DNA from: Patiria pectinifera
Taxonomy: Eukaryota > Echinodermata > Asteroidea > Valvatida > Asterinidae
DNA: 64,000 nucleotides
Assembly: GCA_029964075.1 (NCBI GenBank)
Contig: CM057144.1
Location: 16,143,281 to 16,207,280, forward strand
Direction of reading: 5' to 3'
The translations under genes were made by a program, and so were the position numbers. Below, piece by piece: positions 7,593-7,862 of the stretch. The notes beneath the pieces were generated by a model that saw only the letters and a program-made list of their open reading frames with translations, was not told the origin of the DNA and searched no databases. Positions within the stretch are counted from its first letter, which is position 1, and each line of letters starts with the position of its first letter.

Positions 7593-7658
7593 CAGAATGA
7601 TGTCATCGGCAGGCTCCCGGGCTCGTTTCTTGCTGATTGTTTCAGGCGTGGTCGGAAG
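7593..7658 (-). CDS. MBNL: MBNL cassette exon with basic nuclear-localisation motif
   Basis: This 66-nt, phase 0-0 exon encodes LPTTPETISKKRAREP then ADDIIL. It falls between the zinc-finger 3/4 exon and the LPGLIPPPKKG exon, where vertebrate MBNL1 has SAVKSLKRPLEATFDL; the SKKRAREPADDIIL segment aligns with it loosely. KKRAR is a good monopartite nuclear-localisation candidate. The acceptor is ACTAATAAG/CTT, with no local polypyrimidine tract. The donor is ATTCTG/GTACTG; a second donor nine bases on (GGAA/GTAGTC) would add VLE in frame. The weak local acceptor fits a regulated exon served by a distant branch site (see 7659-7804). The protein similarity is short, so a transcript is needed to prove use of the exon. 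Confidence 0.65.
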
Positions 7659-7804
7659 CTTATTAGTATGCGCAGCCATGATGGATTTTGGCCAATGGGA
7701 TTGCAGCATGGGACAGGCAGAGTCATTAACATAAACCAGCAAGCAGAGCGGCAAATGCATTGTGGGTGGAAAAACAAAAGAAGCAAAGGGTGGATGTCAG
7801 TGAC
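7659..7804 (-). promoter_or_regulatory. AG-exclusion zone with distant branch site and YGCY cluster
   Basis: On the minus strand no AG occurs between the AG at 7806-7805 and the acceptor AG at 7660-7659, 144 nt. A CTGAC branch-site match (7800-7796) is followed by the pyrimidine tract CCACCCTTTGCTTCTTTTG and TTTTTCCACCC. Seven YGCY motifs lie in the zone, four within TTGCCGCTCTGCTTGCTGG. MBNL proteins bind YGCY, and the vertebrate MBNL1 NLS exon is known to be autoregulated through such motifs upstream of a distant-branch-point 3' splice site. Confidence 0.65.
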
Positions 7805-7845
7805 CTCATGCATATATAATGAATTGAGAGAAGAGAGATAGAAAA

Positions 7846-7862
7846 ACACACACACACACAGC
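7846..7862. repeat. CA/TG dinucleotide repeat upstream of the cassette exon
   Basis: About eight CA units lie on the plus strand, so the minus-strand RNA carries a UG repeat followed by TTTTTCTATCTCTCTTCTCTC. UG repeats are typical CELF/CUGBP sites, and CELF proteins often oppose MBNL. The functional link is inference. Confidence 0.7.

Follow-up and report, generated by a model that had tools for sequence, protein, structure and literature searches.

A probable sea star copy of the muscleblind autoregulatory exon with silencer sequence in common with human MBNL1

The vertebrate genes MBNL1 and MBNL2 contain a 54-nt exon accompanied by an ultraconserved intronic silencer (PMC5082313, PMC2991248, PMC8246264), and in the human gene the binding of muscleblind in an AG-free zone keeps the spliceosome off the acceptor (PMC4176163). 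A class of exons that combine an AG exclusion zone with a distant branch point has also been described and is defined on human examples (PMC1431707). A 64,000-nucleotide stretch of DNA from the sea star Patiria pectinifera, hereafter called the window, raises the question of whether an echinoderm muscleblind gene carries the same arrangement. An earlier note on this DNA had proposed, from a 66-nt exon and the intron preceding it, that the autoregulatory circuit and perhaps the opposition between MBNL and CELF proteins are older than vertebrates. The analysis described here indicates that this exon is quite probably the starfish counterpart of the autoregulatory exon of muscleblind, operating via a distant branch point and a YGCY silencer. 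The direct basis for this reading is the orthology of the exon, the included and skipped gene models of related species, the AG-free zone, the YGCY cluster, and the homology to the human silencer.

The muscleblind gene and its 66-nt exon

The gene features discussed below lie on the minus strand of the window, which carries a muscleblind (MBNL) gene. The best matches to the joined exon translations, among the best 120 of 4505 proteins, are P0001 from Patiria miniata (annotated as 'muscleblind-like protein 1 isoform X7') and P0002 from Acanthaster planci. Nine segments of P0001 are placed in the window by tblastn, eight of which are identical inside the exon borders, with one substitution in the linker; the C-terminal part of P0001 falls outside the window. 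The ZnF1 exon was not found within the window. Coding segments are located at 44698-44615, 23867-23649 (ZnF2), 21466-21389, 16943-16839 (matched by Asterias P0006 only, among three proteins compared), and 14597-14421. These are followed by the ZnF3/4 exon (13513-13289), the 66-nt exon (7658-7593), the exon with the second basic motif, PPPKKG (5468-5294), a segment near 3985-3902, and an 80-nt exon (1230-1151) that is likely the homologue of the human 95-nt exon. The segments at 16943-16839 and 21466-21389, between ZnF2 and the linker exon, appear in some starfish models only and are likely additional cassette exons. Also inside the gene, between two coding segments, is a 21-nt minisatellite (2028-2262; 11 copies, 96% matches). 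Separately, and outside the window, P0001, P0003, P0004, and P0011, representing starfish, brittle star, acorn worm, and amphioxus, have a third CCCH pair towards their C-terminal end (VCRDFKSGSCKRPNCRYAH...); invertebrate muscleblind is given one CCCH pair in a 2026 review (PMC13044900).

The frame-neutral cassette claimed in the earlier note is found at 7658-7593 (phase 0/0; acceptor AAG, donor GTACTG) and encodes LPTTPETISKKRAREPADDIIL, which includes the first basic motif. Both predicted junctions, 13289 to 7658 and 7593 to 5468, agree with P. miniata P0001, which is continuous across them and reads ...QASVV, LPTTPETISKKRAREPADDIIL, and NPALPG... in succession. The peptide is identical in P0001 and Acanthaster P0002 and differs by one residue in two Asterias species. 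Its counterparts are LPTTPPENSLKRQRDPADYILL in a brittle star, LPTTPDTPSLKRHRDPSDDALL in urchins, LPTTAETNRLKRTSDISEDLLM in crinoids, LPTTPDKSNKKRARDPADEIL in acorn worms, TPDKVQSLKRLRDPSDDLL in amphioxus, and TQSAVKSLKRPLEATFDL in a mammal (pig P0030). We take the pig peptide to be exactly the 54-nt exon, with which its length agrees. All 12 deuterostome proteins in the alignment, which were picked for having the exon, keep its K and R unchanged, and one lysine of the second basic motif is nearly invariant in the protein alignment. As a separate observation, Asterias models P0121 and P0122 have the same exon with a two-residue difference at its start (LQTTPE versus TTPE), which suggests acceptors 6 nt apart.

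Directly following the ZnF3/4 exon, with a length that is a multiple of three and phase 0, the 66-nt exon is, as judged from sequence, orthologous to the nuclear-localisation exon of vertebrate MBNL1/2. It resembles the vertebrate 54-nt exon in its place after ZnF3/4, its frame-neutral length, its KR motif, and, upstream, a YGCY cluster and two collinear blocks of silencer sequence. Unlike the vertebrate exon, it is 66 nt long, and the second motif in the next exon is KK rather than KR, as it also is in urchins, brittle star, crinoids, and acorn worms. In encoding the first KR, the starfish exon also resembles exon 7 of C. elegans mbl-1, which is alternatively spliced and repressed by muscleblind itself. 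The worm exon differs in belonging to a 225-nt class (75 residues), and the paper describing it analyses neither branch points nor AG zones, the word 'branch' being absent from it (PMC10773944).

The exon occurs in 14 of 15 ambulacrarian species among the listed proteins, comprising four of four asteroids, the one brittle star, five of five urchins, two of two crinoids, and two of two acorn worms; it is missing from the single model of the one sea cucumber. These counts are biased towards the exon because the queries included it and the proteins were the top-ranked among the matches listed. According to a 2023 paper (PMC10773944), paired KR motifs on adjacent exons are found in all bilaterian phyla except Ambulacraria. 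This exception can be corrected, in that the exon is present there with KK as the second motif, and the KK may be why the exon was scored as absent.

Database gene models in which ZnF3/4 is retained and the exon is missing come from Ptychodera (P0009, P0010), Antedon (P0015), Diadema antillarum (P0136), Lytechinus pictus (P0134), and Branchiostoma (P0013, P0014), such that included and skipped models both exist in acorn worm, crinoids, urchins, and amphioxus. Anneissia P0129 and P0133 differ in the exon, and both are without ZnF3/4. Left out of the evidence for skipping were amphioxus P0022, which has a different insert in the place of the exon, and models lacking both the exon and ZnF3/4 (e.g., P0006, P0138, P0143). 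For Patiria and Acanthaster, the models listed are all including ones.

The upstream intron and its conserved silencer

The acceptor of the 66-nt exon is preceded by a 144-nt AG-free zone (7804-7661), as the earlier note had described, with the nearest AGs at -148 and in the acceptor itself (-2). The zone is thus longer than the threshold of at least 100 nt that was set for a distant-branch-point exon. Gaps between AGs that equal or exceed it number 6 of 3458 on the minus strand of the window and 1 of 3595 on the plus strand, and three of the six minus-strand gaps end directly at exons of the gene itself (7658, 13513, and 1230). From local composition, 4.5 AGs would be expected in the zone (P of none = 0.005).

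A consensus match far upstream, also correctly located before, is CTGAC (7800-7796), whose A at -139 is the candidate distant branch point. Behind it lies a polypyrimidine tract (7794-7764) that had been called the only good one; it is indeed the best 25-nt tract of the zone (88%), but a second consensus match, TTAAT (7729-7725; A at -68), also has a fair one (80% over 15 nt). Pyrimidines are less dense beside the acceptor, the final 25 nt before its AG being 56% pyrimidine. The exon is like the AG-exclusion-zone exons (PMC1431707) in having a long AG-free zone whose 5' part contains a candidate branch site followed by a pyrimidine tract, and probably in being a cassette; unlike that class of human exons, its branch point is a candidate from sequence. 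The human 54-nt exon has an AG-free zone of 173 nt and branch points mapped at -141 and -144 (PMC2991248), compared with 144 nt and a candidate at -139 in the starfish.

The earlier count of seven YGCY motifs in 146 nt is correct and above chance expectation. The mean is 1.5 per 146-nt window, and at least seven occur in 0.58% of such windows on the minus strand and 0.19% on the plus strand. Under composition shuffles, 2.9 are expected in the zone (P = 0.016). Because the composition-corrected P values are 0.005 for AG and 0.016 for YGCY, each of these counts is only moderately rare. Four of the seven form a cluster (7753-7738) that had been given a span of 19 nt and in fact occupies 16 nt; it is the sole stretch of 16 nt with four YGCYs on either strand of the window. 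Farther out, TGCATG (7812-7807; UGCAUG at -154) is a possible Rbfox site, the meaning of the motif being given in PMC10773944. It is a weak lead because the minus strand of the window holds 43 copies. The UG repeat reported upstream is present as (TG)7 at 7860-7847, about 190-200 nt upstream of the exon, and is one of three TG/GT runs of five or more in the window.

The human silencer is represented by mutagenesis primers for MBNL1 printed in PMC5082313. The mutants are substitutions and not deletions, and we infer from this that the primers abut; joined end to end, they give 67 nt with one base not known. A single starfish is thus compared with roughly 90 nt of human sequence as printed, all from close to the acceptor side. 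Within the starfish AG-free zone, the human stretch aligns as two collinear blocks. Block 1, CTCTGCTTGCTGGTTTATGTTAATG (7748-7724), is identical to the human silencer in 24 of 25 columns and aligns as CTCTGCTTGCTG[G]TTTATGTTAATG (blastn E 1.9e-5 for both strands of the 64 kb). Its score of 43 compares with a maximum of 30 among 3539 other windows on both strands, and none of 10000 dinucleotide shuffles of the zone reached 43 (maximum 34). Block 2, AATCCCATTGGCCAAAATCCATCATG (7702-7677), is identical in 20 of 26 columns and is not significant alone (blastn E 1.4; equalled by 4 of 3539 windows), but it carries weight because its order and orientation fit. Together the blocks score 65, and the best control window among the 3539 scores 42. 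By sequence, therefore, the intron holds a YGCY-rich upstream silencer homologous to the vertebrate one.

The correspondence is partial in several respects. The gap between the blocks measures 21 nt in the starfish but 6 nt in the human sequence. The printed human stretch has four YGCYs (the fourth deduced from a mutant), two of which are in block 1 at shared columns and two of which are off shared columns. The latter include the central YGCY (3M), the strongest in minigenes, whose mutation shifted the human minigene dose response most (PMC5082313). The longest exact run shared with human is the core TTTATGTTAATG, which contains no YGCY. The letters of the branch sites do not align. The acceptor ends are alike (CTGCTAATTAAG in a human primer from PMC2991248, CATACTAATAAG in starfish), but the resemblance is too brief to carry weight and was not selected by the local aligner. 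Human primer pieces from beside the 36-nt and 95-nt exons gave no alignment to starfish introns (scores 12-17), and a weaker match of a human piece at 14026-14005 (E 0.12) was left as chance. A coding origin of block 1 was rejected: a 1-nt gap between human and starfish argues against it, and the exon's own frame and one other have stops in the zone, the sole open frame not being that of the exon. In the first frame of the zone translation, a stop occurs near the start of the zone.

Searches elsewhere were of limited reach. The pattern CTCTGCTTGCTGN{0,1}TTTATGTTAATG had no matches in viral_contigs or genome_contigs, collections of viral and prokaryote DNA that are uninformative for other animals. 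Strings of the human element were not found in literature text, a search with little power given that published primers are mutated or broken by spaces. The AG-free zone is no more structured than its shuffles (z +0.58), of which 140 out of 200 fold equally well or better. In its minimum-energy fold (7659-7804), block 1 is base-paired with the candidate branch site, a feature given no weight because the human branch-site letters differ. For the human intron, a hairpin is mentioned in PMC4176163, and the intron is described as generally unstructured in PMC5082313.

A second AG-free zone (1529-1233; 297 nt) precedes the 80-nt exon. Composition predicts 11.4 AGs there, and none of 20000 shuffles was free of AG. 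The zone holds 10 YGCYs against an expectation of 4.8 (P = 0.013), and a CTAAT at -278 is accompanied by a pyrimidine tract. The peptide of the 80-nt exon, VPMMPTVPPG, aligns with the vertebrate segment VPM(M/V)HGATP, which by order and length is likely the human 95-nt exon. The two exons share this VPM(M/V) segment, a long AG-free zone, and lengths that are 2 modulo 3; they are equated on the strength of their order, their length, and a brief match between peptides. The human 95-nt exon has a predominant branch point at -229 and an AG zone of 224 nt (PMC2991248), and e5 and e8 are listed among exons under MBNL feedback in the 2026 review (PMC13044900). The starfish 80-nt exon may be regarded as a candidate second autoregulated exon, and no starfish model skips it among the models listed. 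A further AG-free stretch, 244 nt long and directly preceding the ZnF3/4 exon, was not counted because it is pyrimidine-rich (78%; 25 of 28 beside the acceptor), its P of none is 0.03, and YGCY is not in excess there (P 0.36). The human-shared silencer sequence, the UGCAUG at -154, and the zone at 1529-1233 were absent from the earlier note.

Alternative explanations and a likely mechanism

An autoregulated exon of the same identity might instead use the nearer branch point TTAAT at -68, with the long AG-free zone reflecting something else. This is rather doubtful but has to be treated as a real rival because branch-point prediction was misled for two human exons: a candidate at -84 outranked the true site of the 54-nt exon, and the 36-nt exon uses mapped branch points at -51 and -64 despite a strong consensus at -138 (PMC2991248). 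The latter case also means that the starfish match at -139 could mislead. In favour of TTAAT are its agreement with the consensus, its place within the block of highest conservation, and the 80% pyrimidine 15-mer behind it; however, the best tract follows -139 and not -68, and the orthologous human exon has mapped branch points at -141 and -144 only (PMC2991248). Another reader, Rbfox or some other factor, might chiefly recognize the core and UGCAUG of a regulated cassette, leaving muscleblind a minor role or none. The YGCY-free core, the UGCAUG at -154, and the co-regulation of the C. elegans mbl-1 exon by FOX-1 (PMC10773944) speak for this view. It is nevertheless unlikely, considering the two YGCYs at shared columns of block 1 within the only 16-nt stretch with four, the many copies of UGCAUG, and the fact that loss or altered dose of muscleblind affects the exon in human, zebrafish, and C. 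elegans. Zebrafish mbnl mutants have raised inclusion of the exon. In C. elegans, MBL-1 represses the inclusion of its own first-KR exon (PMC10773944).

Deep non-coding conservation studied in echinoderms concerns mostly accessible-chromatin elements (PMC13317027), and on that precedent the conserved blocks could be a DNA element such as an enhancer rather than a splicing element. This is very improbable, since the blocks sit between the candidate branch point and the acceptor of an orthologous exon, and deletions in the human region alter MBNL1-dependent splicing (PMC5082313). Coincidence is the most remote reading of all: the AG and YGCY counts, taken singly, and block 2, taken alone, could reflect base composition or chance, but block 1 has an E of 1.9e-5 and sits in the orthologous place and strand, with block 2 next in the right order.

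The likeliest mechanism is a vertebrate-like one, for which the starfish branch point, muscleblind binding, direction of regulation, and protein localisation are inferred. With the 66-nt exon included, its KKRAR and the KK encoded by the following exon would together make up a complete bipartite nuclear signal. Splicing would probably start far upstream, from the branch point at -139 and the pyrimidine tract belonging to it, and the spliceosome would pass 138 nt to reach the first AG. Muscleblind bound to YGCYs within the AG-free stretch would hinder use of the acceptor. When nuclear muscleblind is abundant, the nuclear-signal exon would be skipped, and newly made protein would shift towards the cytoplasm.

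Age and significance of the switch

Muscleblind autoregulation before vertebrates and the MBNL/CELF opposition are already published (PMC10773944; PMC4978528, which describes the antagonism in planarians). Also, a minigene of human MBNL1 exon 5 responds to distant muscleblind homologues, and the same paper says that specific target exons are not broadly conserved (PMC5041496). The earlier claim that the circuit predates vertebrates gains a cis-element homologous to the human silencer in an orthologous intron, and a pre-vertebrate origin of that element is well supported because the exon is orthologous and two silencer blocks are collinear. The claim about CELF stands as published knowledge, but the UG repeat alone is poor evidence, too weak to argue for CELF control of this exon. 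What appears to be new is the silencer sequence and layout common to human and starfish. Among the papers listed in searches of freely accessible main texts, none was found on the exon or silencer in echinoderms, nor on human-echinoderm conservation of the silencer sequence or distant-branch-point layout.

Human-echinoderm alignable non-coding sequence is rare. A 2026 study of accessible chromatin in starfish and urchin gives 45 elements shared with chordates (PMC13317027, in whose main text 'mbnl' is absent), and this rarity makes an intronic silencer with a known protein reader unusually informative. The ability of muscleblind to control itself through this exon was probably already present in the last ancestor that sea stars share with humans. 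A broader proposal, about evenly poised between right and wrong, is that the silencer is a pan-deuterostome non-coding RNA element retained since the echinoderm-vertebrate ancestor, that two YGCY-laden distant-branch-point exons were inherited and are the same two in starfish and human, and that the core TTTATGTTAATG, having no MBNL motif, points to a second reader. Silencer sequence common to human and starfish dates the feedback switch of muscleblind, one that is disrupted in myotonic dystrophy, at the level of an RNA element, and the comparison reveals which bases have been retained, among them a core for which MBNL binding offers no explanation.
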